The notes under the pieces were generated by a model. That model saw only the letters and a list, made by a program, of their open reading frames with translations. It was not told the DNA's origin and made no database searches. The position numbers and the translations under genes are program-made. Positions 441 to 38,536 of a stretch of 54,258 nucleotides of DNA are shown in pieces (positions within the stretch are counted from its first letter, which is position 1; every line of letters starts with the position of its first letter). Source of the stretch: Gammaproteobacteria bacterium. GTDB taxonomy: Bacteria > Pseudomonadota > Gammaproteobacteria > Enterobacterales > GCA-2746155. The DNA is taken from NCBI GenBank assembly GCA_030589945.1, contig JAUUZN010000006.1, positions 1-54,258 of the forward strand. The letters are read 5' to 3'.

Positions 441-926
441 ATGCCGAGAATTAATTTGATAGCCGCGATGGCCAACAATCGAACCATTGGTCTAGATAAT
501 AAAATGCCATGGCATTTGCCGGCAGATTTAAAACATTTCAAAGCGACTACGCTTAAACATCCCGTTCTTATGGGAAGAAAAACCTATCAATCTATTGGTA
601 AGGCTCTGCCCGGCCGACGCAATATTGTCATCACTAGGGATAAGAGTTTTCAATTAGAAGATGCTGAAGTATTTCATGATCTCGACAAGGCCATCTCAGC
701 CTGTCATGAGGCTGATGAAATCATGATCATCGGTGGTGCAAATATTTATCAGCAATTGATCAAAAAAGCTGACAGACTGTTTCTAACCTTTATTGATTTG
801 GATGTAAAAGGTGATACCTATTTTCCGGACTGGTCAGATTTTGGCTTTAAAGAGATCAGTAGAGAGGACCACAGTGCAGATGAAAAAAATCCCTACAAAT
901 ATTCCTTCATCACTTTAGAGTGCTAA
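441..926 (+). CDS. folA: Dihydrofolate reductase
   Basis: Reduces dihydrofolate to tetrahydrofolate with NADPH, regenerating the cofactor oxidised by ThyA encoded just upstream. At 161 residues it matches the usual chromosomal FolA length (E. coli 159). Visible family motifs are the N-terminal LIAAMA strand, WHLPADLKHFK with the catalytic acid Asp29 (E. coli Asp27), the NADPH-binding MGRKTYQSIG and PGRRN segments, and IIGGANIY near residue 97. The stop codon overlaps by 4 bases the stop of the convergent protease gene on the other strand, leaving no room for a separate terminator. Confidence 0.97.
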   Translation: MPRINLIAAMANNRTIGLDNKMPWHLPADLKHFKATTLKHPVLMGRKTYQSIGKALPGRRNIVITRDKSFQLEDAEVFHDLDKAISACHEADEIMIIGGANIYQQLIKKADRLFLTFIDLDVKGDTYFPDWSDFGFKEISREDHSADEKNPYKYSFITLEC

Positions 927-3763
927 AGCTCTTTTCTGGACCACCCTTGATCTGACAGGCTTATTTCAGCTAACGGCCAGAAGGTATTGTTAAGTTTGAG
1001 TGTTATCAACTTATTTTTCTTTTTCATATCAATAACCTTTAGCCGAACAGAATCGCGGTCTTTTTTATTCTCAACGGCTCTAATAAAACTGTCCAGATTG
1101 GGAGTCGCCTGATCGTCCACATGAGTAATCAGAAGCCCTTTAATCTTAAAGCGCTGTGCTGGTGAGCCTCGCTTTAGGCTAGACACATAAACCCCGGGCT
1201 CTGTTATTCCGATTTGAGTCTTTAGTGCTCTATGTGGGTCTTGAATGGATGCTCCAGCCCAAAGAATGAGTCGTTCAGTTCCCATGCCACTCAATGTGAC
1301 AGTATCTATGGTTAATTCTAGAATTTCGGATTCTCTAGCAATTGTGAGGTTAACGGTGGGTTTTTGAATGGCATTTTCCACATCTCTAAATTTCGTTAAG
1401 ATCTCACCATCAATGGCCAATAATAAATCGCCAGATAAAAGTAGTGCCTCGGCAGGGCTACCTTTCCAAGTATTTTTAACGGACAGAAGTTGATGATTGT
1501 CAGGATTTTTTGCAGCGATTTTTTGCAGCCACTGTTCAGGTATACCCAAGCGTCTAGCTGAAACAAATGGGATTAAACTCCATTCCACTTCCAGTGATTG
1601 AAGCGTTCCTTTACCAGAATTATAGAGGCTGATTAAGTCTGAAACCTGCTGGGCAGGAACAGCCCAGAAGTTTTTCTTAGTGGCTCTTACTGACGCACGA
1701 TAGGATAAAATCATGGCAACAACCTCAGCATCGTCATTGAGGAAAACGCCACTGGAAAGCTTGTAGGTTGAATCTGTGGTGATCACCATCAAATTTGCAT
1801 CTTGAAATTTAGGTACTCTGCTTTTGCTAATTTTTAGAGGTGAGTAGCTTGAGATTGTTCGTTTTTGTTCGAGAATTTTGTAGTCATAATTGGTACCGAC
1901 AACATGTACTTCATCACCGAACACTGGTGCAACGCTTGACAGTTTAGCGCTCTGAACATTGGTTGTACCCAGAAGCGAAGGATCATATTTTAATAAAGCA
2001 AGATTGTGCAGTGGATGGATAAAGGCGACCTCAGCGGCCACTCTTACTGAGCCTGCAAAGGTGAGTTTAATTTCGCCCAATGATGCAGGAACGGTGGATC
2101 GGTCAACCACGATTAATCCTTTTTCTGCATCAATGATTAATCCTGAACCCGAGTTTCTGCTTGTTCCACCATCCACCTTGTAAGGGGTGGTGAATTGGAC
2201 CCAAACCAGAGATGGCGCAATTGATGTTGCAAGGTCAGTTTGTTGTGTTGGGTGTTCTGCGTTTTGAACTTCTGCAGCTTCCTTTGGCGGGGCTAGCTTG
2301 ATGGCATGGCAAACCCAACCAGCGTCTTCTACGTCATCGATTTTAAGTGAATGGTCACAAACCTTAGCCGAGTGCCATTGACGATCATTTTTAACGATGG
2401 ATAGAGAATCATTTTGTGGGTCGTATCGCGAAAAAAAACGAACGGGAAACTCTTTTCCTTCAGGGATCGATTCGAGGGCAGCTATGGCGTCGTCTAAATT
2501 AGTAATGTCTATTTTATTGATACTGCTAATGATAGAGCCCGTTGAAACTCCGGCATTAGAGAACATATAACCACTTGCAGCCAGCACGACTCCCTTTAAT
2601 GGACGGTTCATATGACGAACTTGCTGGTAACTGAGGTTATGTAATACCGCCTGCCCGATTTCAAGATAGCGGGTTGGGGTAATATCTGTGAGTGAACTCA
2701 CTTCGACATTGCCAATGATTAATTTTCCACCACGTATAACTTCTAATTGGATATTCTGAGCGACATGACTATCAAGATATGATTCGAGTGGTATAAATTG
2801 GTTGATCAGTTGACCATCTACTCGATAGAGAATATCTCCCGGTTCTAATAGTTGTGCTGTTGGGCCTTGAGAAATCAGGTCGGCAACAATGAGGGCTCCC
2901 AATGAATCTGGAAATTCTTCACGAAAAACATTCTCTTCATTATCTTTGAGGCCTAGACGTTTAAGTTCAGCAAAAGAGCGGTGGACGAATGTTGTTTGTA
3001 GAGAACCTCTAATGATGGTTTCATTGTTTTGGATTTTTTTAAGCGCATGCTCGACCCGATCAAGAGGAAAAAACATGTTGGTATTTGCACGAAAAGAACC
3101 ACCCGCCTGAAGTGCCAGAACCTGACCCTGTTCATTGATGACAGGGGAGCCGGAAGAGCCACCCGAAGCGCCACTCGCCGCTTGAATATAGAAGGTATTA
3201 AAATCATTGAACTGATGCGCGCCATATTTGGGAGCCTCGCGATTGAGTCTAGCGAGAGTGCCATCGAGGATCGATAGTTTCTCGCCGGCATCATTGCCAA
3301 TCACTCTAATTTCAACACCCACCGTAGCAAGTTCAGGATGCAAGACCAGTGACTTGACTGTCAGGTGTTTAAGAGCTGTTGGATCATAGCGGAAGAAACC
3401 AAAGTCATGTACCGGGTCTCGATAGATGGGCGTTAATTCAAGCTCTTCTTGATTCATAAATACGGCAGTGGCAGTGACTGGACCCGCCTGTACAATATGA
3501 CGATTCGTTAGCAGAATACCGCGCTTTGCATCAACCACAAATCCAGTTCCTTGGGACGAAAGGGGGGACGATGTTTCAAAGGCTCGGGGAACTTCAATGT
3601 GAATGGATACAATAGATGCCGTAACAGTATCGATGGTTTTTTTCCAGCGATCAGATTCTGCTGCAGCTGAATTTATACAAATTATTGGAGTCAATATTAA
3701 AAAGAACATCGTTCTCAATTTATTAAATTGAAAAATGAAATTAAATTTTAATGCTGTCGTCAT
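923..3763 (-). CDS. Large periplasmic serine protease with two trypsin-like and several PDZ domains (Nma111/Deg7-like)
   Basis: A 946-residue exported HtrA/Deg-family protein. An N-terminal hydrophobic signal (about residues 19-35; an alternative start at Met19 would give a more ordinary signal peptide) precedes a trypsin-like domain with a complete triad: His89 in TNRHI, Asp120 in VHDFG and Ser204 in GGSSGSP. PDZ-like regions follow (about 255-470). A second trypsin-like fold begins near residue 510, but His is replaced by Ser (Ser556 in VVDRSTVP) and Asp by Asn (PLHNLALLKYDP), so it should be inactive. Further PDZ domains occupy the C-terminus. This protease-PDZ-degenerate protease-PDZ order is that of eukaryotic Nma111/Pro-Deg and plant Deg7, not of DegP/DegS. 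Function is inferred as envelope protein quality control. The convergent folA gene overlaps its stop. Confidence 0.85.
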   Translation of the reverse strand: MTTALKFNFIFQFNKLRTMFFLILTPIICINSAAAESDRWKKTIDTVTASIVSIHIEVPRAFETSSPLSSQGTGFVVDAKRGILLTNRHIVQAGPVTATAVFMNQEELELTPIYRDPVHDFGFFRYDPTALKHLTVKSLVLHPELATVGVEIRVIGNDAGEKLSILDGTLARLNREAPKYGAHQFNDFNTFYIQAASGASGGSSGSPVINEQGQVLALQAGGSFRANTNMFFPLDRVEHALKKIQNNETIIRGSLQTTFVHRSFAELKRLGLKDNEENVFREEFPDSLGALIVADLISQGPTAQLLEPGDILYRVDGQLINQFIPLESYLDSHVAQNIQLEVIRGGKLIIGNVEVSSLTDITPTRYLEIGQAVLHNLSYQQVRHMNRPLKGVVLAASGYMFSNAGVSTGSIISSINKIDITNLDDAIAALESIPEGKEFPVRFFSRYDPQNDSLSIVKNDRQWHSAKVCDHSLKIDDVEDAGWVCHAIKLAPPKEAAEVQNAEHPTQQTDLATSIAPSLVWVQFTTPYKVDGGTSRNSGSGLIIDAEKGLIVVDRSTVPASLGEIKLTFAGSVRVAAEVAFIHPLHNLALLKYDPSLLGTTNVQSAKLSSVAPVFGDEVHVVGTNYDYKILEQKRTISSYSPLKISKSRVPKFQDANLMVITTDSTYKLSSGVFLNDDAEVVAMILSYRASVRATKKNFWAVPAQQVSDLISLYNSGKGTLQSLEVEWSLIPFVSARRLGIPEQWLQKIAAKNPDNHQLLSVKNTWKGSPAEALLLSGDLLLAIDGEILTKFRDVENAIQKPTVNLTIARESEILELTIDTVTLSGMGTERLILWAGASIQDPHRALKTQIGITEPGVYVSSLKRGSPAQRFKIKGLLITHVDDQATPNLDSFIRAVENKKDRDSVRLKVIDMKKKNKLITLKLNNTFWPLAEISLSDQGWSRKEL

Positions 3764-4031: not shown

Positions 4032-4820
4032 ATGGAACTATTATATCGTCGCTTGTCTGTTTTTACTGGGTTACCCCTTTCATTTCTTGTCTGGGCAATC
4101 ATGCTAAATTCGACCACGATTTTGGCTGAACCAAGAATTCAAATTGTCACTGAAAATACCTATCCTTGGACCTATTATGATGAAAGTAACGGGAAACTAA
4201 AGGGATTTAGCACCGAATTAATTACTGCGATTATGAAAGAAGCAAACTTGAATTTTGAGATAACGGTATTGCCCTGGCCTAGGGCATTCAGAAGAGTTAA
4301 AAATGATAAAAACACCCTTATTTATTCAATGGGTAGAACTGCTGAACGTGAAAATCAATTTATATGGATCGGTAAAATATTTAATATTAATAACAGTGTT
4401 TATGGCTTGAAAAAAGATAATAAAAAAATCATTAAAGATATTTCAGAATTAAAAAATTGTATCACTGGTGTCGTTCGTAATGACATATTCAATCAATATT
4501 TTGAAGACCATGGTTTTCAACATGTCATCCAACTAGAGAGCTACGAGCAAATATTGCAGCTACTAAAAAGAGGGCGCATTCAATGTTATGGGTCAAGTAA
4601 AATTGGAGCAGACTATTTTTTTGAACGTAACAACATCGATACAAATAGCGTTGTTCCAATTTTTACGATTGATGACTTAAATACCGATATTTATTTTGCT
4701 GCTAACATTGATACTAACGCAGGCATCATCAAAAAAATTAAAGAGAGTTTTCTCCGTATTAAAGAAAATGGAACCTATTTAAAAATTATGCAGCCCATGT
4801 TTGATGGGCAAAAGAATTGA
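4032..4820 (+). CDS. Periplasmic solute-binding protein, family 3 (orphan)
   Basis: A 262-residue secreted protein of the bacterial extracellular solute-binding family 3 (amino-acid-type Venus flytrap). A long signal peptide ends near ILA/EPRI (residues 1-33). The first lobe has the typical start VTENTYPWTYYDESNGKLKG, followed by LPWPRAF and YSMGRTAERE, common in orphan members. Two cysteines (in LKNCI and IQCYG) could form a disulfide. No ABC permease or ATPase gene is adjacent: the neighbours are the divergent protease and the convergent apaH. Its transport role is therefore unproven; many such orphans in marine gammaproteobacteria have unknown ligands. The start ATG was chosen because the signal peptide follows it. 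Confidence 0.85.
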   Translation: MELLYRRLSVFTGLPLSFLVWAIMLNSTTILAEPRIQIVTENTYPWTYYDESNGKLKGFSTELITAIMKEANLNFEITVLPWPRAFRRVKNDKNTLIYSMGRTAERENQFIWIGKIFNINNSVYGLKKDNKKIIKDISELKNCITGVVRNDIFNQYFEDHGFQHVIQLESYEQILQLLKRGRIQCYGSSKIGADYFFERNNIDTNSVVPIFTIDDLNTDIYFAANIDTNAGIIKKIKESFLRIKENGTYLKIMQPMFDGQKN

Positions 4821-18836: not shown

Positions 18837-20378
18837 TTAGGGTTTAGTATAACCGGAATAAAGTACTCCAGATAACCGCGCCATCTCTCGGTGCCAAGTT
18901 GCCAGATCATTTTGATTAAACTTGCTTAAATGATCATGTCCGCAGGCCCGAGCTAAAACTTGCATAAGTTCTACACTTGCATCAAAAAAATTGTGTAACT
19001 GCTTCGCTGACTGCTCAACGTTAAGGCGTTTTCTTAGTCCAGGGTTTTGAGTAGCAATTCCTGTTGGACAATTATTAGTGTTACACATTCTTGCGGCGAC
19101 ACAACCTATGGCTTGCATAGCACTGTTAGAAACGGCTACGGCATCAGCACCAAGTGCCATAGCCTTAACAAAATCGCTGGGTACTCTTAAGCCTCCCGTG
19201 ATGATCAGAGTGACACGACCACTAGCACCCTGTTGATCGAGATATCGTCGAGCTCGGGCAAGGGCAGGAATCGTTGGAACACTGATGTTATCCCTAAACA
19301 ATTCGGGCGCGGCACCGGTACCACCTCCACGCCCATCCAATATGATGTAATCAGCGCTGGCATCTAATGCAAATTGAATATCCTGCTCAATGTGATTGGC
19401 ACTGAGCTTAAATCCAATAGGGATTCCGCCAGTAATTTCACGCACACGATCGGCAAAATTCTTAAAATCAGAGACTGATGATAGATTTTTAAATGTGGGT
19501 GGTGAAATTGCAGAAATGCCTTCTGCAATGCCTCTCACCTCAGATATTTTGCCTCTGTTTTTATTCCCCGGAAGATGTCCCCCCGTTCCAGTTTTTGCAC
19601 CCTGTCCACCTTTAAAGTGAAAGGCCTGAACATCTTTAAGAAGTTCTTCTTTGTAACCAAACTCAGCACTGGCTAGTTCATAGAAATAACGTGAATTTGC
19701 CAGTCGCTCTTCAGGCAGCATTCCACCTTCACCGGAACAAATGCCTGTTCCAGCGAGTTCTGCACCCATGGCCATAGAGACCTTTGCTTCTTCAGACAGG
19801 GCGCCAAAACTCATATCAGAAACGAACAGTGGAATTCTCAATGTCAGCGGCTTCTTAGATTCGGGACCAATAATAATTTCAGTATCAACACTTCGATCTT
19901 CCATGAGAGGCTTGGTGGCCATTTGTGCGACCATGATCTGTATATCGTCCCAATGGGGGAGTTCATGACGAGGAACACCCATGGATGTCATCGGACCATG
20001 ATGTCCTAACTTCGACAGACCTTCTTTAGCTAATTGATGAATGTAGGCAACCGTTGGTTCTTCAGGTGTGGCTGCTGCAGTGGGCAGTTCAGCAGCGTTT
20101 GTTATTTTACCAGGACCTTCTTTGCCAATCTCTTGAGCAGCAAACTTCTTATGAGTACCATCGCAAAAGGGTAAGTTATTAGAATGTTTACAAGCACATA
20201 AATAGGCATCTCCGGACTCCTCAGCAATAACCTTCAGTGGCTTGAATGTCGAGCCCTTATGAGAACCATCGCAAAAAGGTTGGCTTTTAGATTTACCACA
20301 GGTGCAAAAGTAGTAGTCTTGATCTTTTTCAAAACTTGCCTTTATTGGTTTATTATCTGCAATGATTGGGTTGTCCAT
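18837..20378 (-). CDS. Double-CDGSH iron-sulfur / glutamate-synthase-type FMN domain fusion protein
   Basis: A 513-residue cytosolic redox protein. Two CDGSH [2Fe-2S] motifs are at the N-terminus: Cys25, Cys27, Cys36, His40 and Cys61, Cys63, Cys72, His76. After a linker the rest (about residues 120-500) is the FMN/Fe-S catalytic domain of glutamate synthase: PLFVSDMSFGALS, GEGGMLPEER, GGQGAKTGTGGHLPG, LDGRGGGTGAAP and the 3Fe-4S cysteines in CVAARMCNTNNCP. The glutaminase domain of GltB is absent, so ammonia-dependent glutamate synthesis is not implied. An electron path CDGSH to 3Fe-4S to FMN is plausible; the substrate is unknown. Related fusions exist in databases as glutamate-synthase-related proteins. 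Confidence 0.9.
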   Translation of the reverse strand: MDNPIIADNKPIKASFEKDQDYYFCTCGKSKSQPFCDGSHKGSTFKPLKVIAEESGDAYLCACKHSNNLPFCDGTHKKFAAQEIGKEGPGKITNAAELPTAAATPEEPTVAYIHQLAKEGLSKLGHHGPMTSMGVPRHELPHWDDIQIMVAQMATKPLMEDRSVDTEIIIGPESKKPLTLRIPLFVSDMSFGALSEEAKVSMAMGAELAGTGICSGEGGMLPEERLANSRYFYELASAEFGYKEELLKDVQAFHFKGGQGAKTGTGGHLPGNKNRGKISEVRGIAEGISAISPPTFKNLSSVSDFKNFADRVREITGGIPIGFKLSANHIEQDIQFALDASADYIILDGRGGGTGAAPELFRDNISVPTIPALARARRYLDQQGASGRVTLIITGGLRVPSDFVKAMALGADAVAVSNSAMQAIGCVAARMCNTNNCPTGIATQNPGLRKRLNVEQSAKQLHNFFDASVELMQVLARACGHDHLSKFNQNDLATWHREMARLSGVLYSGYTKP

Positions 20379-35716: not shown

Positions 35717-38536
35717 ATGAACATTAGATTGGTAATTCTTGTAGTATTTTTCATATTGTCTCTTGGTGGCGTCACCAATGCAGCAAATAATGCATCAATT
35801 CCTGCGGATGATAAAACTGATTCTCCAAGAGAAGCGATTACAGTCGTCACAGTCAACAACAACCCTCCCTTTAGTTTTAAACTTCCCAATGGTGAATTAG
35901 CCGGTCTGTATGTCGAGTTCTGGGAATTATGGTCCAAGACTAATGATATACCCGTTAACATCATTATTGCTTCCTTAGAAGATGGCTTGGAGATGGTTAA
36001 AAATAAGCAAGCAATCCATGCAGGACTATTCAGTAATGACGAACGGAAGCAGTGGTTAGATTTTGCCCTACCCATACACAGCGTGAAGACGGGTATTCTT
36101 TATAATCAAAATATTAAAAGTTCCACTAAACTACATCACACCAATGGCTTAATTGTGGCAACTCAACGTGGGAGTTTTCAAGAAAAATTTCTAAAGGTTA
36201 ATTTTCCAGAGCTAAAATTAGTACTCTATGATGGTCTTGATGTTGGATTAATACAGCTACTAAATGGTGAGGTGCAGGCCGTTGTATCGGAAGTGCCCAA
36301 TATACAGGCACAACTGGCAAGGCAAAGTCTTAGTGGTGTCTTTGTTCTCTCAGAAGAGGAACTTACTTCTAATCTGGTATTCCCTATTTTAGCCAAAGGC
36401 CAAAATAAGCTTTTGCAAACCATTAATCAAGGCATTGAAAAGCTTCAAGTAGAAGAGCTCATTGCCATCGAGAAAAAATGGTTACCTTCCCTCAAACCCT
36501 TCTTTGCTGAATTTTCTGACTTTAAATCACTGACAATTGCTGAACAAAAATGGCTTCAAGAAAACCCAAGTTTTTCAATAGGTGCTGATTCTGCCTGGTA
36601 TCCATACGAATATACCGATTCTGAGGATGTATTGAGCGGTATTTCGTCTGACTACCTTGAACATATTATAAACACTGTAGGAATTAAGTTAGATTTTCAT
36701 TCCCAATTAACGTGGAATCAAGCTTACGAACAGTTTTTAACGGGTAAAATTGATATTCTATCCGCAATTGTAAAAACACCTGAGCGTGAGAAGTATATCA
36801 ATTTCACGGCACCATATTTCGTTGCTTCTACGGTTATAGTTACTCAAAAGGATTCCTTTTTTGTTGATTCCATGGCGAATTTAGAACAGAAAAAAGTGGG
36901 TCTCATTGAAGGTTACGCTCTCTCTGATTTAGTCTCTGAGGACTATCCACTTATTAACATTATTTCGGTTTCTTCTGTTGCTGATGGAATTGAACGGCTT
37001 AGTTTGGGTGAAATTGACGCCTTCATTAACACTATAAGTGTTATCAATTCAGAGATAGACAAGCAAAAAATAAATAATTTAAAGATTGCGGCTTTTTCAC
37101 CCTATAAGTTTGAAATCTCGATGGCTGTTCGAAAAGGTTTGGAACCATTGGTCCCTATCCTTAATAAAGCGTTTTCAAATATGAGCGAGAAGCAACGATC
37201 AATAATCGCTAATAATTGGCTTTCAACACATGTGCAGGATGGTATAAATATAACGACCATCCTAATATGGGTTTTACCGATTGTTTCATTGCTTTTACTC
37301 ATTATTTTTACCATTATTTATATTAACCAAAGACTGAAGAATGAAATTACGATTCGAAAACAATCAGAATTAGAGCAGCGCTCTCTTGAATCTCAACTCC
37401 ATCAATCTCAAAAAATGGAGGCTCTGGGAAATTTAACAAGTGGCATTGCACATGATTTTAACAATATGTTGGGTGTCATCCTTGGATATTCAGAATTGCT
37501 CAAGTTAAAACCCATCGACCCAGTCAAACTTGATGATTATGTCGATCATATTGAACAGGCAGGAAAGCGTGGAGCGAAGTTAACCAAAAAATTAATGTCC
37601 TACACACGCAAGCAAGATCTCGAGGCTTCACAGTTAGATATTAATGAATTGATTTTAGGCCAACAAGACATGCTCCAAAAAACCTTAACAGTTAGAATAA
37701 AGCTAAACTTTGAACTCGCTGATGATATTTGGTCAATATGGTTAGACCAAAGCGATTTAGTTGATACCATCCTTAATATGAGCATCAATGCGATGCATGC
37801 CATGGAAGGAAGTAAGGAAAAATCACAGCTTACTATTCGCACTCAGAACAAAACATTAAACAGCTTGGACGCTAAAACATTTGGGTTTGAAAAAGGGGAG
37901 TACGTTGAACTCAGTATTATGGATACAGGTTGTGGAATGGATGAAAATACAATCAGTAATATCTTTGATCCATTCTTTTCAACTAAGGGAGAAAAGGGTA
38001 CAGGTTTGGGCCTATCACAAGTTTTCGGATTTGTTAATCGCTCTGGTGGTTTTATTAGGGTTAACTCGTTACTTGGTGAGGGCTGTAGGTTTGATCTCTA
38101 TTTCCCTCGGTACAATCTTGAATATTCATCCGTTGAACAGGTTGATAATGGCGATATAAAGCCATCAACGGGTTGTGAATTAATTCTTGTTGTAGATGAT
38201 GAAGAGCCTCTGAGGCAGCTAGCAACAGAACTATTATCATCAAATGGCTATCAGGTTTTCAGCTGTGAGAGTGCTAAGGAAGCGTTATCCATTTTAGCCG
38301 AACATAAAATTGACTTGATGCTCACAGATATAATAATGCCCAACATGGATGGTTATCAATTATCAGTAGTTGTTCAGGAGAAATACCCCGCAGTTAAAAT
38401 CCAACTAGTGAGTGGTTTTGCTGATGAGAAAAACAAATCATTATTGACCAAAGACGTGCATGAGAATCTTCTTAATAAACCTTACAATTCTAAGTTATTA
38501 CTCAGAGTAGTCAGACAACTTTTAGACAGTGATTAA
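35717..38536 (+). CDS. Hybrid sensor histidine kinase with two periplasmic binding (VFT) domains and a receiver domain
   Basis: A 939-residue membrane sensor. After a signal peptide (1-22) come two solute-binding family-3 domains (about 40-265 and 280-505), a transmembrane helix (about 514-537), a short coiled linker, a histidine-kinase core with His579 in GIAHDFNNML and ATP-lid motifs NMSINAMHAM, MDTGCGMD and GTGLGLSQV, and a C-terminal receiver with Asp871 in MLTDIIMPNMDGY. The tandem Venus-flytrap sensor resembles BvgS, but the HDFNN kinase core is of another subgroup and the PAS and HPt domains of BvgS are missing. No response regulator is adjacent, so output is unknown. Confidence 0.93.
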   Translation: MNIRLVILVVFFILSLGGVTNAANNASIPADDKTDSPREAITVVTVNNNPPFSFKLPNGELAGLYVEFWELWSKTNDIPVNIIIASLEDGLEMVKNKQAIHAGLFSNDERKQWLDFALPIHSVKTGILYNQNIKSSTKLHHTNGLIVATQRGSFQEKFLKVNFPELKLVLYDGLDVGLIQLLNGEVQAVVSEVPNIQAQLARQSLSGVFVLSEEELTSNLVFPILAKGQNKLLQTINQGIEKLQVEELIAIEKKWLPSLKPFFAEFSDFKSLTIAEQKWLQENPSFSIGADSAWYPYEYTDSEDVLSGISSDYLEHIINTVGIKLDFHSQLTWNQAYEQFLTGKIDILSAIVKTPEREKYINFTAPYFVASTVIVTQKDSFFVDSMANLEQKKVGLIEGYALSDLVSEDYPLINIISVSSVADGIERLSLGEIDAFINTISVINSEIDKQKINNLKIAAFSPYKFEISMAVRKGLEPLVPILNKAFSNMSEKQRSIIANNWLSTHVQDGINITTILIWVLPIVSLLLLIIFTIIYINQRLKNEITIRKQSELEQRSLESQLHQSQKMEALGNLTSGIAHDFNNMLGVILGYSELLKLKPIDPVKLDDYVDHIEQAGKRGAKLTKKLMSYTRKQDLEASQLDINELILGQQDMLQKTLTVRIKLNFELADDIWSIWLDQSDLVDTILNMSINAMHAMEGSKEKSQLTIRTQNKTLNSLDAKTFGFEKGEYVELSIMDTGCGMDENTISNIFDPFFSTKGEKGTGLGLSQVFGFVNRSGGFIRVNSLLGEGCRFDLYFPRYNLEYSSVEQVDNGDIKPSTGCELILVVDDEEPLRQLATELLSSNGYQVFSCESAKEALSILAEHKIDLMLTDIIMPNMDGYQLSVVVQEKYPAVKIQLVSGFADEKNKSLLTKDVHENLLNKPYNSKLLLRVVRQLLDSD

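Follow-up and report, generated by a model that had tools for sequence, protein, structure and literature searches.

The gene at positions 923–3763 of the minus strand of the window (the whole stretch of DNA that was analysed, 54,258 nt) encodes a tandem HtrA protease of the Deg7/Nma111 type, a kind to which the protein belongs by every testable defining feature. We consider it probable that the gene represents a bacterial, exported form of this type in which the dead unit acts as a built-in partner for assembly and substrate, that the form goes back to a single duplication in bacteria and that it is the counterpart of the eukaryotic proteins. An initial annotation had proposed a Deg7/Nma111-type active–inactive tandem in a bacterium, and this was borne out by the order of the domains, by two PDZ_1 matches and by an alignment comprising the window protein and 79 relatives from genome contigs (n=80), in which the first catalytic triad was kept in 80/80 sequences and the second in 0/80.

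Domain organisation of the tandem protease

The ORF begins with an ATG at 3763 and encodes 946 aa, whilst the plus strand at 923–3763 is closed by many stop codons. The protease gene and the end of folA overlap by four bases. A simple scan for a promoter and a terminator gave nothing clearly over chance level.

All domains are given here with their minus-strand coordinates. The first unit comprises an active protease domain, D1 (residues 72–218; 3110–3550; Trypsin_2, 78.2 bits), a PDZ domain (residues 290–353; 2705–2896; PDZ_2 and PDZ_6) and a PDZ_1 domain (residues 360–435; 2459–2686; PF12812, 74.8 bits). The second unit comprises an inactive protease domain, D2 (residues 539–684; 1712–2149; Trypsin_2, 23.6 bits), a PDZ domain (residues 755–810; 1334–1501; PDZ and PDZ_6) and a further PDZ_1 domain (residues 829–903; 1055–1279; PF12812, 42.8 bits). 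The order obtained from Pfam and from mapping on the genome was PD-PDZ-PDZ_1-PDia-PDZ-PDZ_1, with both PF12812 matches above the cut-off. The triad reported for the first half in the initial annotation was found intact, with His89 (3497–3499), Asp120 (3404–3406) and Ser204 (3152–3154) when residues were numbered from the ATG at 3763. The replacements claimed for the second half were likewise present, with Ser556 (2096–2098) at the His position and Asn587 (2003–2005) at the Asp position, and the catalytic serine was not retained.

Yeast Nma111 (Ynm3) is an active–inactive protease pair, and the bacterial protein resembles it both in this pairing and in its PDZ_1 domains. Plant Deg7 has the order PD-PDZ-PDZ-PDia-PDZ-PDZ, and AtDeg7 (At3g03380) is 1097 aa long (PMC3473262). 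The bacterial protein has the same domain order, a dead second protease domain and about 1000 residues, but it is without long insertions and carries an export-type signal, whereas Deg7 has been reported from the plastid stroma, cytosol, nucleus or mitochondrion (PMC4130198). The export-type signal also sets it apart from Nma111, which is nuclear (PMC3434108).

Either half of the tandem has the DegP fold, consisting of a protease domain and two PDZ domains. DegP and DegQ, however, possess one protease unit, and the tandem protein lies on a separate tree branch and falls far under the cut-off of the NCBIfam Do-family model TIGR02037 (118.4 bits compared with 416.2), so that the distinction drawn earlier from the single-domain proteins DegP, DegQ and DegS held. 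Scores for PDZ_1 were 55–85 bits in most tandem proteins, compared with 36 bits or less in single-unit Deg proteins; two tandem proteins (the L202/G202 and L314/G314 types) were lower, at about 43 bits.

Fold and conservation of the second unit

The trypsin-like nature of the second half was confirmed by three comparisons. Trypsin_2 matched D2 over model positions 1–144 at residues 539–684 with an E value of 1.5e-4, a match that falls short of the curated cut-off; the D2 profile was nearest to D1 (E 6.9e-47), followed by DegP and single-unit proteins (about 1e-38); and the structure predicted by AlphaFold2 for residues 506–946 from 15 sequences (mean pLDDT 86.4, pTM 0.83) matched the whole protease-PDZ-PDZ unit of DegP in Foldseek (E 1.7e-23). 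A protease fold was thus predicted within residues 510–700, the region singled out by the initial annotation. As modelled, the second unit is a complete HtrA unit that is catalytically degenerate and has kept its fold.

Across the 80 aligned proteins, the His position of D2 was occupied by Asn in 77 and the Asp position by Asn in 79, whilst in 78 the Ser position held F, V, Y, I or L, mostly followed by D or G. The prevalence of Asn rather than Ser at the His position (77/80) makes it probable that Ser556 arose secondarily. The motif KLSSGV described in the initial annotation is indeed present at residues 668–673, but it is not a conserved catalytic vestige: its SS pair is confined to the window protein and its nearest relative, and we rejected this lineage-specific motif as a catalytic remnant. 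S670 and S671 of the window protein might also be taken to mean that the second unit retains peptidase activity through unusual catalytic residues, an idea to which we give almost no credence, given the hydrophobic residue at the Ser position in nearly all relatives and the Asn that almost always fills the His and Asp positions.

Two conserved motifs, DRNTVP and HPLHN, were particular to D2, and in a broader set of 22 divergent proteins no fewer than 20 retained each of D554, H583, P584, N587 and G672, which indicates that the second domain possesses a conserved sequence of its own. Mean pairwise identity was 32 % in the D2 protease domain, compared with 60 % in D1 and 24 % in the linker. The lower figure for D2, together with the loss of its catalytic residues, is what would be expected if the second unit were a decaying remnant devoid of function. 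We regard this as very improbable, however, in view of the confident predicted fold, the residues conserved among the divergent proteins, the higher conservation of D2 than of the linker and the PDZ domains of the second unit, which are conserved as well as those of the first.

Distribution, proposed duplication history and probable relationship to the eukaryotic proteins

The tandem form had been described as rare in the initial annotation, and in this respect the description did not hold. When 274 genomes of the class Gammaproteobacteria were searched with PF12812 and the frames counted by hand, frames of 930–1030 aa were found in about 18 of the 274 genomes, representing 13 families. When GTDB contigs were scanned with the family alignment, at least 530 bacterial relatives came to light, of which the best 80 matched across nearly their entire length; the titles of these relatives included Woeseiaceae, Steroidobacter, Peristeroidobacter and other Gammaproteobacteria. 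Judged from these sequences, the form is patchy but common in Gammaproteobacteria and is neither rare nor unique to the source genome. Two MAGs titled Rhodospirillaceae (L111 and L161) were also among the tandem relatives, and in a trial tree that included approximate eukaryotic sequences the former neighboured a protein titled Rariloculus (L145). When 398 genomes were sampled evenly across the phylum, the full-length tandem matches listed were confined to the order of the window, and for the class of G639 (probably Alphaproteobacteria; 190 genomes) only single units were among the matches listed. Plasmid records queried with the second half gave no match.

In the tree, the D1 halves formed one clade and the D2 halves another (22/22 each, with supports of 1.0 and 0.99), and the DegP/DegQ/DegS-type proteins formed a branch separate from both. 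Four single-unit Deg proteins (L164, L165, L166 and L173) joined D1 as its sister. Among the proteins compared, these single units were also the nearest to the D1 profile (E 7.9e-55). They differ from the tandem proteins in having one unit, and no PDZ_1 match was found in the three of this set that were scanned. They come from genomes of 1.2–1.7 Mb belonging to another class of the phylum. It is possible that they represent the form that preceded the duplication. The simplest reading of the sequences is that one D1-like unit was duplicated before the sampled tandem proteins diverged and that the second triad was then lost; the long D2 branches make the placement of the root between D1 and D2 insecure.

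Deg7 and the fungal protein have been described as putative orthologues (PMC4130198). The fungal proteins (yeast Omi/HtrA, Nma111) possess the Pfam PDZ1 domain and are reportedly closer to eubacterial proteins than to human HtrA (PMC5982838). No Nma111 or Deg7 entry was found among solved structures queried with the whole protein and with a profile of the second half, and a search of the literature collection available found no paper pairing Nma111 with Gammaproteobacteria or with S235. The eukaryotic sequences used in trial comparisons were approximate, unverified versions, with 1097 residues for AtDeg7, which equals its published length, and 991 for Nma111. True yeast Nma111 is a few residues longer, so this version contains errors. 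The approximate Nma111 aligned with bacterial tandem proteins over its full length at up to 570 bits, which, like the other comparisons with these sequences, serves as a lead only. Asn occupied both the His and the Asp position of the second domain in the approximate Deg7, as in the bacterial proteins, and the Asp position in the approximate Nma111. In trial trees, these approximate Deg7 and Nma111 sequences fell among the bacterial tandem proteins, on a weakly supported backbone.

Common ancestry of the bacterial tandem with eukaryotic Deg7/Nma111 is likely, although not proven. An independent bacterial duplication inside the DegP/DegQ family, with the likeness to Nma111/Deg7 a product of convergence, is by comparison unlikely. 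HtrA units duplicate easily and the eukaryotic sequences compared here were only approximate, but both D1 and D2 fell outside the DegP/DegQ/DegS group, which also speaks against the simple DegP duplication considered in the initial annotation. The Do-family score of 118 against a cut-off of 416, the presence on both units of PDZ_1, a domain published for the fungal proteins (PMC5982838), and the full-length alignment of the approximate Nma111, as a lead, all point in the same direction.

Transfer of the gene from a eukaryote into Gammaproteobacteria, which would make it uninformative on eukaryotic origins, might be considered on the grounds that fungi and plants provided the first descriptions of the architecture. 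There is little to recommend it: the form is spread across 13 sampled gammaproteobacterial families, nearly all members have export-type signals, housekeeping genes recur as neighbours, and single-unit relatives that are the sister of D1 occur in another bacterial class. As a more tentative extension of common ancestry, to which we attach somewhat less than even weight, eukaryotic Nma111 and Deg7 may trace back to a bacterial tandem protease of this exported type, acquired once its second domain was already dead, the unit itself having come from single-unit Deg proteins such as persist in the small genomes of another class of the phylum. If so, a periplasmic protease-chaperone was turned into a nuclear and organellar one. 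As the tandem form is common in Gammaproteobacteria, this class is a natural place to seek the origin of the eukaryotic proteins, and with the bacterial set the origin of the eukaryotic branch can be put to the test.

Export, genomic setting and proposed function

The initial annotation had also regarded the protein as exported, and its N-terminus agreed with this. Residues 1–35 (3659–3763, minus strand) have the sequence KLRT-MFFLILTPIICINSAAA and include a hydrophobic stretch (KD 2.85); followed by ES, this N-terminus (KLRT-MFFLILTPIICINSAAA-ES) resembles a typical Sec signal, with probable cleavage before E36. A hydrophobic stretch precedes the first domain in 78/80 family members. In two of the tandem proteases (L037 and L056), the signal ends in LTSC or LTAC, a lipobox, and these proteins are probably lipoproteins.

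The source genome separately encodes three Deg proteins (460, 355 and 346 aa) that have canonical active-site motifs, and the tandem protein is therefore an addition to them. In relatives, the tandem gene often follows the glycine-cleavage genes gcvT-gcvH-gcvPA-gcvPB, and in 29 of about 96 loci a gene for an M23 cell-wall peptidase (e.g. L046:3549-4550) lies directly downstream on the same strand. Some relatives have lgt-thyA-folA near the tandem gene, and the window retains the thyA-folA link. An artefact of MAG assembly was rejected, since the nearest relative, from another MAG (L036, on the same contig as L084), likewise has folA, apaH and apaG nearby. The gene neighbours, the hydrophobic stretch and the lipoprotein-like N-termini fit an envelope protein, as far as its location can be inferred from them.

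By analogy, the protein is likely to be a periplasmic protease-chaperone in which the dead unit provides a platform for assembly and substrate. The first unit would degrade or refold damaged envelope proteins in the periplasm, and its PDZ domains would select unfolded chain ends, as those of DegP do. In AtDeg7, the inactive domain takes part in trimerisation (PMC3473262), and the dead unit of the bacterial protein may similarly help a trimer to assemble, a role carried over from this plant protein only, whilst contributing two further substrate-binding PDZ domains. Such a trimer would form a permanent two-layer HtrA particle, resembling two stacked HtrA trimers, in which cutting takes place in one layer. 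The tandem would have arisen once in bacteria through duplication of a D1-like unit, the second triad would have been lost before the sampled Gammaproteobacteria diverged, and the product would correspond, on the bacterial side, to the eukaryotic proteins. The large bacterial set, which shares this layout, offers many natural variants from which to learn the role of the dead domain, in organisms simpler than plants.

Three other genes in the window were noted. A lone SBP_bac_3 protein (4032–4820) adjoins the tandem protease, and a hybrid histidine kinase with two SBP_bac_3 sensor domains is encoded at 35717–38536. In a glutamate-synthase-like FMN protein (18837–20378), a single chain carries two CDGSH iron-binding motifs.
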